This document shows, in pieces, positions 40,638 to 61,430 of a stretch of DNA of 64,000 bases. A program made the position numbers and the translations under genes. The stretch is taken from assembly GCA_903824675.1 (NCBI GenBank), contig CAIJXV010000013.1, forward strand, positions 62,001 through 126,000, written 5' to 3'. The stretch is from an uncultured bacterium (GTDB taxonomy: Bacteria; Verrucomicrobiota; Kiritimatiellia; CAIKKV01; CAIJXV01). Every line of letters starts with the position of its first letter. Within the stretch, counting starts at the first letter, position 1. The notes beneath the pieces are model-generated. The model was not told the origin of the DNA. It saw only the letters and a list, made by a program, of their open reading frames with translations, and made no database searches.

Positions 40638-41176
40638 ACGGTTCCCTGGGTTCTATCGAACGCTAGCCACTGGATCGACAGCCGACAAGGGAAAAAAGCC
40701 GTATGCAGCGGACGACCGAATCCCTTGCGAACGATCCTGAATACGAATTTTCATGGGGGGCATTTTGCCAAAGCAGACTGGCGATGTCAAATTTGGGGTG
40801 TATTCCTGGTTGACCCGACCTGGTTCCAGAGACCTGTTCTCCCCAACACAGGATCGGCCTCCCCCCTGATCATTGCGTAATCTCCGCGTAGCGGAGGTCC
40901 CCGACCTGGTCGGGCCGCGGACAGACGGCTCGACAGAGTCTCGCCCTCCAAACGTTAATCTATACAAGATGGATAACGCTCTCCCCTGGCGAGACTCTGG
41001 CGAGCCGCAAGGGCAAAGGGTGACACATGCGGTCGTCATTCGCCGATGCGATCTTAGACGAGGATTTGGGCCTCCCGGTACCGGCTTGATTCTGAACCTC
41101 GGACCGTATAACCTTCCCCGTTGTGTCCCGCCCCACCAGCCGTCCGACACAACCCGCCGGTTGAGGATTATAGGTA
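40638..41176. other. Intergenic region holding hairpin element A
   Basis: No gene supported. About 200 bp of it is element A copy 1 (40866-41066), and the remainder is the exoprotein upstream region. ORFs listed here on both strands read through the repeat. Confidence 0.65.
40866..41066. repeat. Hairpin element A, copy 1
   Basis: A ~200-bp intergenic element also found at 59264-59469. Arms GGCTCGACAGAGTCTCGCC and GGCGAGACTCTGGCGAGCC are inverted with one mismatch around a conserved loop (AATCTATACAAGATGGATAA). It starts CTGATCATTGC and carries a smaller CCGACctggTCGG hairpin on its left. Confidence 0.85.
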
Positions 41177-56550: not shown

Positions 56551-56607
56551 TAAATCGGCCAGAAACGGTCGGGGTGGCACCCGACCCTCCCAACACCTAA
56601 GAATAAC

Positions 56608-56647
56608 CGTCGGTATTTACAAGGGAGGGACGGCTGCCACGCCGTCC
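56608..56647 (+). repeat. GGACGGC hairpin repeat, copy 1
   Basis: AAGGGAGGGACGGCTGCCAC followed by GCCGTCC; GGACGGC-TGCCAC-GCCGTCC is a perfect 7-bp stem. An inverted copy lies at 59533-59573. Confidence 0.8.
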
Positions 56648-56897
56648 ACCGATTTGTTCACAGGTTCTATGGACTGGCTTATGCGTTTAGCCGTCCGGTA
56701 GAAGCTGTAAAAAAATAAAATCCTGACGGTCGGGACCCTTCGGCTTCGCTCAGGGGAGCCGGAGCCTGACCCTCCACTGGAGGGATGACCTCCGTGTCGT
56801 CCACGAATTAATTCACGGTTTTTTACGCCCGGCTGGTCGCCGTTATGACGGATGAGATCACCGGCGTGCCCCTCTAGCCGGTTGGCGCAATATCGGT

Positions 56898-59213
56898 CTA
56901 TTTACTGAATTTCAACGTCCCCCGAAACACGCTCGCTCCAAAAGTCGTCACATACACGATCCGTTCATCCTGAGGATCGAAAGCCACCCGTTGAATATTC
57001 GAGAAAGGCAGATTTTGAACTGGCGCAAATGTTTGTCCGTTGTCCTGTGACAAAAAAAGGCCCTCCTCCGGCGCCCCCTCGGTCAACGTCATGTAAATCC
57101 ATCCCTTGCGACGCGGATCCAGATAGGCCCCGAAATGTTCCGGTCCTTTCCGGGCCAGCAGAGACCAGCTTGCGCCTCCGTCAGTGGTCCGGTAAAGCCC
57201 GCCTTCTTTACGCGGACCGGCATCCGCCACGCTCAGATAAATCGTCCGGGAATCAGCCGGATCAACGGTAAAATCCTTGGGCCAGAGGAATCGTTTCGCC
57301 GTTAGCGATTCCCAACTCTGAGTGGCCGGGTTCAGCCGGAAAAGACCTACCCCGTCCTCCTGAAAGATCCGCCCCACCCGCAACGCGGTCACCAGGGCAA
57401 ACAGGGTCCCATCCTGATGACGGAATACCCGGGTCACCCGCCGATTCTTTTCAGACCCCAACCCCTGCCCCACCGGCGCCCAGTGTTGCCCTCCGTCCTC
57501 GGAACCATAGACCCCATGATTCCAGACCGCCGCAAACAAGCGCCGCCGATCGCGCGGGCTTCGCGGATCGACGATCACCGAGGTCGTCGCGGAAACGGGC
57601 AACCCGACAGTGACGGGTTTCCACGTATTCCCCGAATCCATGCTCAGGCAGACACCCCCCGCCCCGGACGATTTATGGCGATTCTCGATAATGTTGCCAT
57701 TGGGGATATCATGCACATCTGAAAAGGCACCCCATATTTTTCCCGGAATGTCGGGATCGAACGCCAACTCGTAGCAAGTGTTCTGCCAGGGTGCGCGTCC
57801 GGTTTTCCCCCACCATTGCCAACTTCGTCCGCGGTCGGCGGACCGGGCCAACCCGATATCGGTGTAGGCGATGTAATGGCGCTCAGGATTCAGGGGGTCT
57901 ACATAATAATTCCAGGTGGTCGTCACCCCAAGTCCCTGGGGTCGCCAACAGGCATCCCGGCCGGTCCGGGTTAAATCGGCGCTTTTCGACATCGCACTCA
58001 CCCAGGTGCTCCCGCCATCGCGAGTCAGGTAACATCTCCCGCTATCCGAAAACAGGACTCGCCGCGAATCGGTCGGACAGATCGCCCAACCCAGGCCCGC
58101 TTCCTGAAAATTCTGGCCCAGAGTGGCCGTCAACCAATTCGGCTCGACATTATAAAGCCCTTTCCAACGGGGATCGGAATAAAAGGTCGCCTTCCAACTC
58201 TCGCCGGCATCTTCCGATTTCCAGACGGCATTATGATAAGGCGGGGAAAATCCTGTACTGGTGTTGAAAGCGTAAACGGTGTCGGGCTTCTCATCACAGG
58301 CCAGCAGGCCGGGATATTGCGCCACCGGGCCATCCGCCCACTCATCCATTTTCCGGATCCCCCGGTTAATCTCGCCTTTCATCACGCTCTCCCAGGATTC
58401 GCCTCGATCGCGCGATCGATAGATCCCCCCGACATATTGGCCGGCCAGATCCCTGGCCGGCACGGAACAATAGAGAACGGTTTTTCGGGTCCGGGGATCC
58501 GATCCCCCCGCAAATGAGCGAATCTCGGTCCACGGCAACCCGTTCGTTTTGGGAAACCAGGTTTGGCCTCCGTCATCACTGCGATAAACGCCCTTCGTCG
58601 TCCCTGAAAACAGCGCCCGGTTACCCGGTTTACCCGTCCGTTCAAAACGAAAGGACAAGGGCGTTCCCTCAATCCCCGAACAGGTTTCCCAATGGATCCC
58701 CCCATTGATCGAAAGCGCGACGCCGGACGAAGTTCCCACCAGCATCCATTCCGGTTGATCGGGATCGATCGCGATTCCGCCGACCAATTCCGCCTTGAGA
58801 TCCCCGATGGGTTGAAAGGTTTGCCCGCCATCCCGCGACACCCGCAGGGAGCCGGACCAATCGTGCGCGGCAAAAACAACCTGGGGATCCTGGGGGTGAA
58901 AAGCGGGTCGACACCGGATATTCCCACGCAATTGCCGATGATGAATGAGCGCCCAGTCGTGACCGCCATCCTGCGAAAGATACGCCCCGCTCATGTCGCA
59001 ATTGAGCATCATACGATCCGGATCGGCCGGACTGATGGCGGGCGTGAACATCGCCCCGCCGCCGCCCAATCCCACCATTTCCCACTCGAAACAGACCGCG
59101 GTCGGCGAGGAGGTTTCCTGGGCTTGCGCGGCCATTCCCAAACCGATCATCAAGGCCAAGACGGCCCCCCTGATAGGCCTTCGGCGACCAGGTCGTTGTT
59201 CTCGATGTTTCAT
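56898..59213 (-). CDS. Secreted multi-Asp-box (BNR/GH74-like) beta-propeller protein
   Basis: 771 aa with a signal peptide (GAVLALMIGLGMAAQAQ). About twelve Asp-box motifs of the form SxDGGxTW occur along the whole protein (SQDGGHDWA, SRDGGQTFQ, SDDGGQTWF, TRDGGSTWV, SEDGGQHWA, TTDGGASWS and others). That number suggests two seven-bladed propellers, as in GH74 xyloglucanases and Vps10-type proteins. GH74 catalytic Asp residues cannot be assigned by eye. A secreted glycan hydrolase or binding protein is likely. The gene is flanked by inverted copies of the GGACGGC repeat. Confidence 0.82.
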   Translation of the reverse strand: MKHREQRPGRRRPIRGAVLALMIGLGMAAQAQETSSPTAVCFEWEMVGLGGGGAMFTPAISPADPDRMMLNCDMSGAYLSQDGGHDWALIHHRQLRGNIRCRPAFHPQDPQVVFAAHDWSGSLRVSRDGGQTFQPIGDLKAELVGGIAIDPDQPEWMLVGTSSGVALSINGGIHWETCSGIEGTPLSFRFERTGKPGNRALFSGTTKGVYRSDDGGQTWFPKTNGLPWTEIRSFAGGSDPRTRKTVLYCSVPARDLAGQYVGGIYRSRDRGESWESVMKGEINRGIRKMDEWADGPVAQYPGLLACDEKPDTVYAFNTSTGFSPPYHNAVWKSEDAGESWKATFYSDPRWKGLYNVEPNWLTATLGQNFQEAGLGWAICPTDSRRVLFSDSGRCYLTRDGGSTWVSAMSKSADLTRTGRDACWRPQGLGVTTTWNYYVDPLNPERHYIAYTDIGLARSADRGRSWQWWGKTGRAPWQNTCYELAFDPDIPGKIWGAFSDVHDIPNGNIIENRHKSSGAGGVCLSMDSGNTWKPVTVGLPVSATTSVIVDPRSPRDRRRLFAAVWNHGVYGSEDGGQHWAPVGQGLGSEKNRRVTRVFRHQDGTLFALVTALRVGRIFQEDGVGLFRLNPATQSWESLTAKRFLWPKDFTVDPADSRTIYLSVADAGPRKEGGLYRTTDGGASWSLLARKGPEHFGAYLDPRRKGWIYMTLTEGAPEEGLFLSQDNGQTFAPVQNLPFSNIQRVAFDPQDERIVYVTTFGASVFRGTLKFSK

Positions 59214-59263: not shown

Positions 59264-59469
59264 CTGATCATTGCCTAATGTCCGCGTAGTGGTGGTCCCC
59301 GACAAGTTCGGGCCGCGAACGGACGGCTCGCCAGAGTCTCGCCCTCCAAAGGTCAATCTATACAAGATGGATAACTCTTCCCTGGAGGGCGAGACTCTGA
59401 CGAGCCGCGGGGGCAACGGGTGAAACCTGTGGTCGCCATTCGGCGATGCGCTCTTACGCGATGATTAGG
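59264..59469. repeat. Hairpin element A, copy 2
   Basis: Arms GGCTCGCCAGAGTCTCGCCC and GGGCGAGACTCTGACGAGCC extend to 24 bp with one mismatch around the same loop as copy 1. A 15-bp direct repeat CATCTGATCATTGCC lies at both ends (59261-59275 and 59475-59489). Confidence 0.85.
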
Positions 59470-59532
59470 GTCGACATCTGATCATTGCCACGCGCATCCA
59501 GGCTGAAGATGAAATATGTAGGTGAAAAAAAC

Positions 59533-59573
59533 GGACGGCGTGGCAGCCGTCCCTCCCTTGCAAGAACCGACGG
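59533..59573 (-). repeat. GGACGGC hairpin repeat, copy 2 (inverted)
   Basis: Reverse complement of the 56608 copy with a few changes. Together the two bracket the Asp-box gene. Confidence 0.8.
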
Positions 59574-59665
59574 CGATTCTTAGCCGGAGCGATTCCGTTG
59601 CGACGATAAAACGGCAAACGACAAGGGATCGCCATTCCCGGGGTGGACCGGGCGGTCCCTCGCGC

Positions 59666-60173
59666 GGGGCGCATCTGCGATTCGGTGCAAATTCGCCTAT
59701 TTCCTTGATAAACCGCCCCAGGTGGGGCTTCGCCCACAACCCGATTCCCCGTTGTTGTCGGACGGGCCTCGGCGCCCGGCGTCCGCGGATCCTCTCCAGA
59801 CGCCCGCCACCGAGGGCGGGCCGACATCGATTAAAAACGGATGGTGTAACGCCCTTTAGGGTAGGGCTTCGTCCACAACCCGATTCCCCGTTGTTGTCGG
59901 CCGGGCCTCGGCGCCCGGCGTCCGCGGATCCTCTCCAGACGCCCGCCACTGAGGGCGGGCCGACATCGATTAAAAACGGATGGTGTAACGCCCTTTAGGG
60001 TAGGGCTTCGTCCACAACCCGATTCCTCGTTGTTGTCGGACGGGCCTCTGCGCCCGGCGTCTGCGGATCCTCTCCAGACGCCCGCCACCGAGGGCGGGCC
60101 GACATCGAGTCAAAACGGTTGGTGTAAACGCCCTTTAGGCGGTTTCTGTACACCGAATCGCAGATGCGCCCCC
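59666..60173. mobile_element. Inverted-repeat-bounded element with tandem 139-bp units
   Basis: GGGGCGCATCTGCGATTCGG and TG (left end) recurs exactly inverted on the right (about 60151-60172), giving a 22-bp perfect terminal inverted repeat. GGCGGTTT next to the arms is also inverted. No transposase gene lies inside, so it would be a non-autonomous element if mobile. Classifying it as mobile is inference. Confidence 0.5.
59722..60140. repeat. Three tandem 139-bp repeats
   Basis: Units start at 59722, 59861 and 60000, each opening GTRGGGCTTCGYCCACAACC and closing near AACGCCCTTTAGG. They differ at only a few positions, mostly in unit 3 and at the edges. Each has internal hairpins (CCCGCC-ACCGA-GGGCGGG; GGGC...GCCC). 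Confidence 0.95.
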
Positions 60174-60198
60174 TCGCGCGCGCCACTAAAATAACCGC

Positions 60199-60226
60199 TT
60201 TACACTGCCTTTTGTTCCGATATACT
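60199..60226 (+). promoter_or_regulatory. Promoter of the DegT operon
   Basis: TTTACA (60199-60204), 16-bp spacer, TATACT (60221-60226); each box matches 5 of 6. Transcription would start about 72 nt before ATG 60306, just outside the inverted-repeat element. Confidence 0.65.
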
Positions 60227-60305: not shown

Positions 60306-61430
60306 ATGAAGGTTCCTTTTTACGGACATGTCCGCCAGTACACCAACCTGAAGAGCGAGATCGACGCCAACATCAAGACCGTGATCGAAAGCGGCGAATA
60401 TGTCATGGGTCCGATGCTCAAGAAATTCGAAGCCGAATTCGCCCAATTCTCCCAAACCAAATTCGCCATCGGCGTGGCCAACGGCACCGATGCCATCTGG
60501 CTGGCGCTGCTCGCCCTCGGCGTCGGTCCCGGCGATGAATGCATCACCCACACCAATACTTTCTTCGCCACCGCCGAAGCCATCTGGTTCACCGGCGCCA
60601 CCGCCGTCTTCGTCGACTGCGACCCCAAAACCCGGTGCATCGATCCCTCCAAGATCGAAGCCGCCATCACCCCCAAGACCAAGGCCATCATCCCCGTCCA
60701 TCTGTATGGCCAGTGCGCCGATATGCGCGCCATCCGCAAAATCGCCGACAAGCACAAGCTGTTCGTCATCGAAGATAACGCCCAGGCCATTGACGCCGCC
60801 GGCCCTGATTTCCGGATCGGCGAACTCAGCGATGCGGCCACGACCAGTTTCATCATCCAGAAGAACCTCGGCACCTTCGGTGACGGCGGCATCGTCATCA
60901 CCAATAATCCCGAGATCGACCGCCTGGTCCGCAAGATGCGCAACCACGGCTCTGAAAAGCGCTCGCAGCACAGCTTCGGGTTCAACAGCCGTCTGGATGA
61001 CATCCACGCCGGCATCCTGAGCGCCAAGCTCAAGCACATTCACGTCGGCAACGATCAGCGCCGTAAATGGGCCGCGCGTTATACCGCCGCCTTCAAGGGC
61101 GTCAAGAGCTTCACGCTCCCCTACGAAGTGCCCGGGGGCCGCCATATCTTCCATCTCTATGTCGTCGAAACGGTCAATCCCGCCAAACGGGACGCCCTGA
61201 TGAAGTTCCTCATCGATAATGGCATCGATGCCAAGAGCCATTATCCCATCGCCATCCACCAGCAGGAAGGCTATCCGTGGGGCAAGCAGGCGCGCATCGT
61301 CGGGCCCATCCCGAACTCGGAACGCAACGCCGTCTCCTGCGTCAGTCTGCCGATGTTCCCGGAATTGACCGAAGCGGAAGTGGATTACACCATCCAGAAG
61401 TGCCTGGAATGGGATAAAGCCAACGCGTAA
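60306..61430 (+). CDS. DegT/DnrJ/EryC1/StrS-family PLP aminotransferase
   Basis: 374 aa, cytoplasmic, fold-type I. VPFYGHVRQYTNLKSEID and SGEYVMGPMLKKFEAEFA are the family's N-terminus. ANGTDAIWLALLALGVGPGD binds the cofactor phosphate. IEDNAQA carries the PLP-contacting Asp. FIIQKNLGTFGDGG holds the Schiff-base Lys. These enzymes aminate keto-sugars, usually nucleotide-linked. Beside a Gfo/Idh oxidoreductase and nagB it may handle an amino or keto sugar. GAGGAG lies 7 nt before ATG 60306. Confidence 0.93.
   Translation: MKVPFYGHVRQYTNLKSEIDANIKTVIESGEYVMGPMLKKFEAEFAQFSQTKFAIGVANGTDAIWLALLALGVGPGDECITHTNTFFATAEAIWFTGATAVFVDCDPKTRCIDPSKIEAAITPKTKAIIPVHLYGQCADMRAIRKIADKHKLFVIEDNAQAIDAAGPDFRIGELSDAATTSFIIQKNLGTFGDGGIVITNNPEIDRLVRKMRNHGSEKRSQHSFGFNSRLDDIHAGILSAKLKHIHVGNDQRRKWAARYTAAFKGVKSFTLPYEVPGGRHIFHLYVVETVNPAKRDALMKFLIDNGIDAKSHYPIAIHQQEGYPWGKQARIVGPIPNSERNAVSCVSLPMFPELTEAEVDYTIQKCLEWDKANA

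Follow-up and report, generated by a model that had tools for sequence, protein, structure and literature searches.

Directly upstream of a promoter, the window (the whole 64,000-nt stretch of DNA analyzed here) contains three 139-nt tandem units enclosed by inverted repeats, which raises the question of what such an array is and how it came to lie there. The original prediction offered three options, i.e., a non-autonomous mobile element, a structured RNA array, or a protein-binding array. Based on computed evidence from the copies of the element, its TIR, the 9-bp duplications, the promoter spacing, matching autonomous elements in relatives, and the sharing of the cassette, we consider it highly probable (roughly 0.88) that the window locus is an ISKra4-like MITE that was placed by a promoter-spacing rule and carries a multiplied REP-like cassette.

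Anatomy of the window copy

Using Tandem Repeats Finder, we obtained a period of 139, 3.0 copies, and a score of 759 for the array. The 139-nt direct repeats start at 59721, 59860, and 59999, confirming the three units that had been predicted; the predicted start at 59722 is one base off, which is a choice of phase only. Units 2 and 3 are 97% and 90% identical to unit 1, with 4/139 differences between units 1 and 2 and 14/139 between unit 3 and either of the other two. The arms at 59666-59687 and 60151-60172, described in the original prediction as a 22-bp perfect inverted repeat, are indeed 100% complementary; however, the outermost base of each arm (G59666 and C60172) is part of a 9-bp target duplication, CCTCGCGCG, and the element proper therefore extends from 59667 to 60171 (505 bp) with a 21-bp perfect TIR. 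The features of the locus are listed here.

59658..59666, no strand: left 9-bp target-site duplication CCTCGCGCG, identical to 60172-60180; the duplication is 9 bp at exactly this offset family-wide
59667..59687, + strand: left TIR GGGCGCATCTGCGATTCGGTG, 21 bp, perfect complement of 60151-60171
59688..59720, + strand: left subterminal linker CAAATTCGCC...AAACCGCCCCA, which the alignment shows to be shared by most copies with a single unit
59721..59859, + strand: core unit 1, from repeat detection
59860..59998, + strand: core unit 2, differing from unit 1 at 4 positions
59999..60137, + strand: core unit 3, differing at 14 positions from each of the other two
60138..60150, + strand: right subterminal linker GGCGGTTTCTGTA, from the alignment of single-unit copies
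60151..60171, - strand: right TIR, complementary to the left TIR
60172..60180, no strand: right 9-bp target-site duplication, identical to 59658-59666
60199..60204, + strand: -35-like hexamer TTTACA, separated from the TIR end by 27 nt (family-wide peak, 26-28 nt)
60221..60226, + strand: -10-like hexamer TATACT, 16 nt after TTTACA
60306..61430, + strand: DegT/DnrJ/EryC1-type aminotransferase gene outside the element (Pfam PF01041, E 2.2e-109), the first gene past the promoter

The short gap to the promoter that had been predicted was borne out, with 27 nt between the TIR and the -35 hexamer TTTACA. The left neighbor of the element is a leftward BNR/sortilin-type gene (56898-59213), while on the right the rightward aminotransferase gene at 60306 is followed by an oxidoreductase gene and then a glucosamine-6-phosphate isomerase-type gene. 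The statement that no reading frame spans the repeat holds for the three units together but not for fewer, as mechanical ORFs of 155-158 aa run across one or two units; nothing suggests that these ORFs are real genes. We note that other dispersed repeats lie to the left of the element: a second one of ~200 bp at 59270-59473 (also at 40872-41070), which has around 20 genome copies and contains a 25-bp inverted repeat at 59324-59407; a third, short one of ~65 bp at 59522-59583 (also at about 56597-56661) with at least 6 copies; and a fourth, short one of ~40-83 bp at 59578-59660, which reaches the left target duplication.

The option of a structured RNA array was rejected. An Rfam search of the window element gave no match at curated thresholds, the isrK model being hit weakly at 17-21 bits where 50 are needed, and a covariation test gave no net covariation. 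The strong fold of the element is expected from any TIR-bounded palindromic DNA.

A dispersed family and the probable source of its ends

The window element had 59 similarity matches in the host genome, a 4.24-Mb draft in 124 contigs. A 17-nt core of the TIR occurs at 119 host-genome sites with at most 3 mismatches, while the reversed-pattern control gave 3 sites. The copies are ~180-570 bp long and contain no transposase gene, and most of the complete ones are ~220-250 bp with one core; an alignment of 19 single-core copies had a mean column identity of 87% (92% over well-filled columns). The unit and the arms thus recur, removing the possibility, allowed for in the original prediction, that they occur nowhere else.

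We then compared the flanks of 35 complete copies. The 9 bases flanking each end match at 60.3% of positions, compared with 26.5% (maximum, 35.9%) when the 9-mers were shuffled between copies, and matching peaks only at length 9 and offset 0. This peak is a signature of transposition. The family is short, TIR-bounded, dispersed, and devoid of a transposase gene, with a 9-bp target duplication that is perfect in the window copy, as in MITEs; ends in common with an autonomous element were found in related genomes, not in the host.

The GGG ends together with the 9-bp duplications, which we took to be marks of the ISKra4 family, prompted a search with the model NF033572. We found no ISKra4-like transposase in the host assembly, noting that a MAG can miss insertion sequences; therefore, the family looks non-autonomous in the host, i.e., like a MITE. 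Its present mobility is, for the same reason, something that we infer, and this counts against the preferred reading. In G006 (contig C121), a genome of the same order as the host, the 22-nt TIR ends 24 bp past a transposase stop codon, and a class-wide search identified in G325 a complete 1730-bp element that is bounded by the TIR on either side and whose transposase shares 71% identity with the G006 protein; the nearest genomes compared share only the order with the host. In relatives whose TIRs vary, the 9-bp duplications are perfect (CCGCGTTTT in L144 and ATTGCTTAT in L146). These same-TIR transposase genes, together with the dispersed TIR-bounded copies and the 9-bp duplications, favor the first of the three options, a non-autonomous mobile element.

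For the closest transposases, the best NCBIfam model was NF033572 (E 1e-43 to 1e-47; 149-161 bits). Because these scores stay below the equivalog cut-off of 205, which is a second point against the preferred reading, we name the probable parent no further than an ISKra4-like (Mutator-type, p-MULT 4) insertion sequence. The GGGCGCAT-ended elements L114, L116, and L124 score above this cut-off. The family resembles the ISKra4 group (PMC3942029) in its GGG-ended near-perfect inverted repeats, in its 9-bp duplications, which lie within the 8-9 bp of ISKra4/p-MULT 4 elements, and in that related genomes carry NF033572-matching transposase genes bounded by its TIR; it differs in that the family element lacks a transposase gene and the closest transposases fall short of the equivalog cut-off. 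We found nothing relevant in the literature on ISKra4-derived MITEs or on MITEs in Kiritimatiellota.

An IS110 parent was also considered and rejected. In L041 (G000 C13:4117-6634), the TIRs lie 1.9 kb apart around an IS110-family gene; this single-copy IS110-family element lies within the loop region of the copy's second hairpin and splits a unit at about position 93-94. Because it is an insertion that splits a unit, in an arrangement that occurs once, it does not qualify as the parent.

MAGs named Kiritimatiellae, Lentisphaerae, Verrucomicrobia, and Spartobacteria also contain the exact 22-nt TIR, with other sequences in between (L177, L193, and L194). In the MAG INTA.AUR.007 (L177, L189, and L204), which has 78 TIR sites, the same TIR encloses a shorter, unrelated interior, and in other genomes L104, L193, and L194 have the same TIRs around GGTAGGGCG...GAGCC palindromes, i.e., different palindromic passengers.

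Distance of insertions from promoters

Base frequencies outside 88 TIR ends in the host revealed TTG at positions 28-30, followed by an A/T-rich -10 zone. Using a threshold of at least 8/12 for a promoter pair, we found that 29/88 host-genome ends have a -35/-10 pair in which the -35 follows after 26-28 nt from the TIR, while random offsets gave a mean of 2.1 and a maximum of 6 in 200 draws. Both ends of the element are used (10/41 left, 15/37 right, and 4/10 unassigned ends), and only part of the elements have a recognizable promoter at 27 nt. The same distance ranked first in three further sets, comprising 90 ends taken from other genomes, 37 from G346, and 22 that belong to a differently ended ISKra4 family in G027; the last is the weakest set, with few ends above the threshold. 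Promoter-like sequence also lies 27 nt from the autonomous elements L124, L144, L145, and L146 and, more weakly, L116. As a control, a second MITE-like family had no 27-nt peak at its 25 ends (4.0 versus a mean of 3.7, SD 0.29). A test based on gene starts, in which we counted ORFs of at least 100 codons starting 40-350 nt outward of the TIR end, did not discriminate, as such ORFs were present not only at all 12 promoter-side ends but at 22 of the 27 remaining ends as well. We conclude that insertion is non-random and that the promoter distance, which turned out to be the most telling detail in the original prediction, is a family-wide insertion rule. The window copy fits this rule, with the -35-like TTTACA after 27 nt and, after a further 16 nt, the -10-like TATACT.

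Guerillot et al. (PMC3942029) reported that ISKra4-group elements insert upstream of sigmaA promoters with 8-9 bp duplications, that either end is used when the IRs are near-perfect, and that the IR-to-promoter spacing is 13-17 bp. The family described here shares with that group the use of either end, the placement immediately upstream of sigmaA promoters, and the fixed spacing; its distance from IR to -35 is 27 nt, not 13-17, which also stands against the preferred reading. Counted from the outer edge of the duplication instead of from the TIR, the spacing is 18, and the discrepancy may stem from how the distance is counted or may be genuine, amounting to about one helical turn.

We infer mobilization in trans. 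A transposase would recognize the GGGCGCATCTGCGATTCGG ends, and the element would insert by a 9-bp staggered cut such that ~27 bp (the 9-bp duplication and 18 more) separate its gene-facing end from the sigma70/sigmaA-type -35 box downstream. The target gene would keep its promoter, with the element replacing the upstream region, and in the window this may affect transcription of the operon at 60306. Such a gene-less element would provide a clean, testable case of promoter-targeted transposition, in which the positions of the -35 and -10 predict the landing site and dozens of copies in one genome supply statistics. The window copy would be a natural test case for mobile DNA that rewires bacterial promoters without breaking genes, and the ISKra4/TnGBS targeting rule would be extended to the MITEs of a lineage that, judging by named relatives, is of the Verrucomicrobiota/Kiritimatiellota type.

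The hairpin cassette and its multiplication

Each core contains two hairpins that are built alike but inverted relative to each other, H1 (GTNG-GCCGGGCCTCTGCGCCCGG-CGTC) and H2. Across 19 copies, H1 shows no variation along 20 consecutive columns, a run that was reached in 0/10,000 column shuffles. The hairpin occurs 82 times, with a 5' GTAG in 47 cases and a 3' CGTC in 70. GTAG and CGTC are tags described for REPs, some of which, the CGTC REPs, have been reported without a dedicated transposase (PMC3733652). The cores share with GTAG- and CGTC-tagged REPs/BIMEs the short palindrome, the tag tetranucleotides, the inverted pairs, the high copy number, and the role of IS target; they differ in that a single hairpin has both tags, with the 5' one conserved only as GTNG, in that MITEs carry the pair as a cassette, and in that we found no RAYT next to the hairpin.

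These similarities, i.e., REP-like tags and hairpins in an inverted pair, raise the alternative that a RAYT (Y1 tyrosine) transposase spreads the interior as a REP/BIME-type element, so that activity resides there and the outer TIRs are incidental. The hairpin is also found outside these TIRs, the host genome has two Y1_Tnp genes, and the IS110-family element in the second-hairpin loop of L041 recalls REPs reported as IS targets (PMC3733652). Nevertheless, we regard this alternative as unlikely: the 9-bp duplications adjoin the TIRs and not the hairpins, transposase genes in related genomes are bounded by the same TIR, and the 5' tag is variable (GTNG). A RAYT-borne REP was rejected because neither of the two host Y1_Tnp loci has the hairpin in flanks up to 1.5 kb. 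For an ISKra4-like MITE, the interior, with its two REP-like hairpins (GTNG-hairpin-CGTC) in inverted orientation, would instead be a passenger.

Outside these TIRs, the hairpin occurs mainly in the second MITE-like family, which has ends near GATTGTAAAGTTAAATGCCGC (L224-L243). L084 and L088 are hybrids that mix segments of both families, which argues that the cassette recombines between these two unrelated MITE-like families.

Two or three cores are present in 7/35 complete copies (the window copy, L048, L064, L068, L071, L084, and L085); because such copies are a minority, tripling is not required for mobility. Successive H1 hairpins in them are spaced by 82 to 170 nt, with several junction types, and the junction CGCCCTTTAGGGTAGGGCTTC or close variants of it occur in the window copy, L085, L073, and L083. 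Short imperfect repeats (CGCCC..AGG; GGTGYAAA) lie on either side of the core in single copies and would fit slippage or unequal exchange as the amplification route; in the window, the core may have been amplified to three in this way at the flanking CGCCC..AGG repeats. In a metagenome-assembled draft of 124 contigs with dispersed repeats, a triplication could also be an assembly artifact. We consider this very improbable, as the units differ at 4-14/139 positions and are therefore not simply one duplicated read, the junction recurs at three other loci with other flanks, and each side of the element retains an intact TIR and target duplication.

Modular elements of this kind have been described elsewhere. 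Like the family here, BOX of Streptococcus pneumoniae is MITE-like and modular, with outer modules and variable internal tandem modules; its sequence and TIR are unrelated, it has tentatively been linked to ISSpn2, and the available part of that report describes no promoter-spacing rule (PMC3049150). The BrickBuilt MITE of Porphyromonas gingivalis (PMC4596501) likewise has a tandem array inside a dispersed intergenic MITE, with a 23-nt minisatellite in place of the 139-nt hairpin-pair units and with other ends. Each ingredient has a precedent in ISKra4 targeting, BrickBuilt (PMC4596501), or BOX (PMC3049150); we found no report that combines all of them in the literature searched, which included few subscription papers.

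The last of the predicted options, a protein-binding array, is possible for the hairpin cassette. Another proposal is that the tripled core is a selected regulatory array that, like boxB of pneumococcal BOX, adjusts expression of the downstream operon. Its position just upstream of a promoter, the 20-nt hairpin that is invariant across otherwise 92%-conserved copies, and the altered expression of neighboring genes reported for BOX modules (PMC3049150) are in agreement with such a role; however, insertion preference alone accounts for the spacing, unrelated loci differ in their number of cores and have junctions of several types, and covariation lends no support, and we consider this proposal unlikely. 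A broader, speculative possibility, to which we give a low probability, is a composite mobile system whose ISKra4-type ends target a fixed position upstream of promoters and thereby bring exchangeable, double-tagged REP-pair cassettes to many of them. In such a system, the palindromic cassette between the same ends would differ from species to species, cassettes would recombine with those of unrelated MITEs, and the neighboring promoter would be tuned by how many cassettes (1-3) are present. For the ISKra4-like MITE itself, the carriage and multiplication of REP-like cassettes common to an unrelated MITE family bear on how RAYT-unlinked REP pairs may spread. We note that the same cassette also occurs in a 235-bp tandem repeat of different makeup in the host genome (G000 C55:1-900, L230, and C46, L051).
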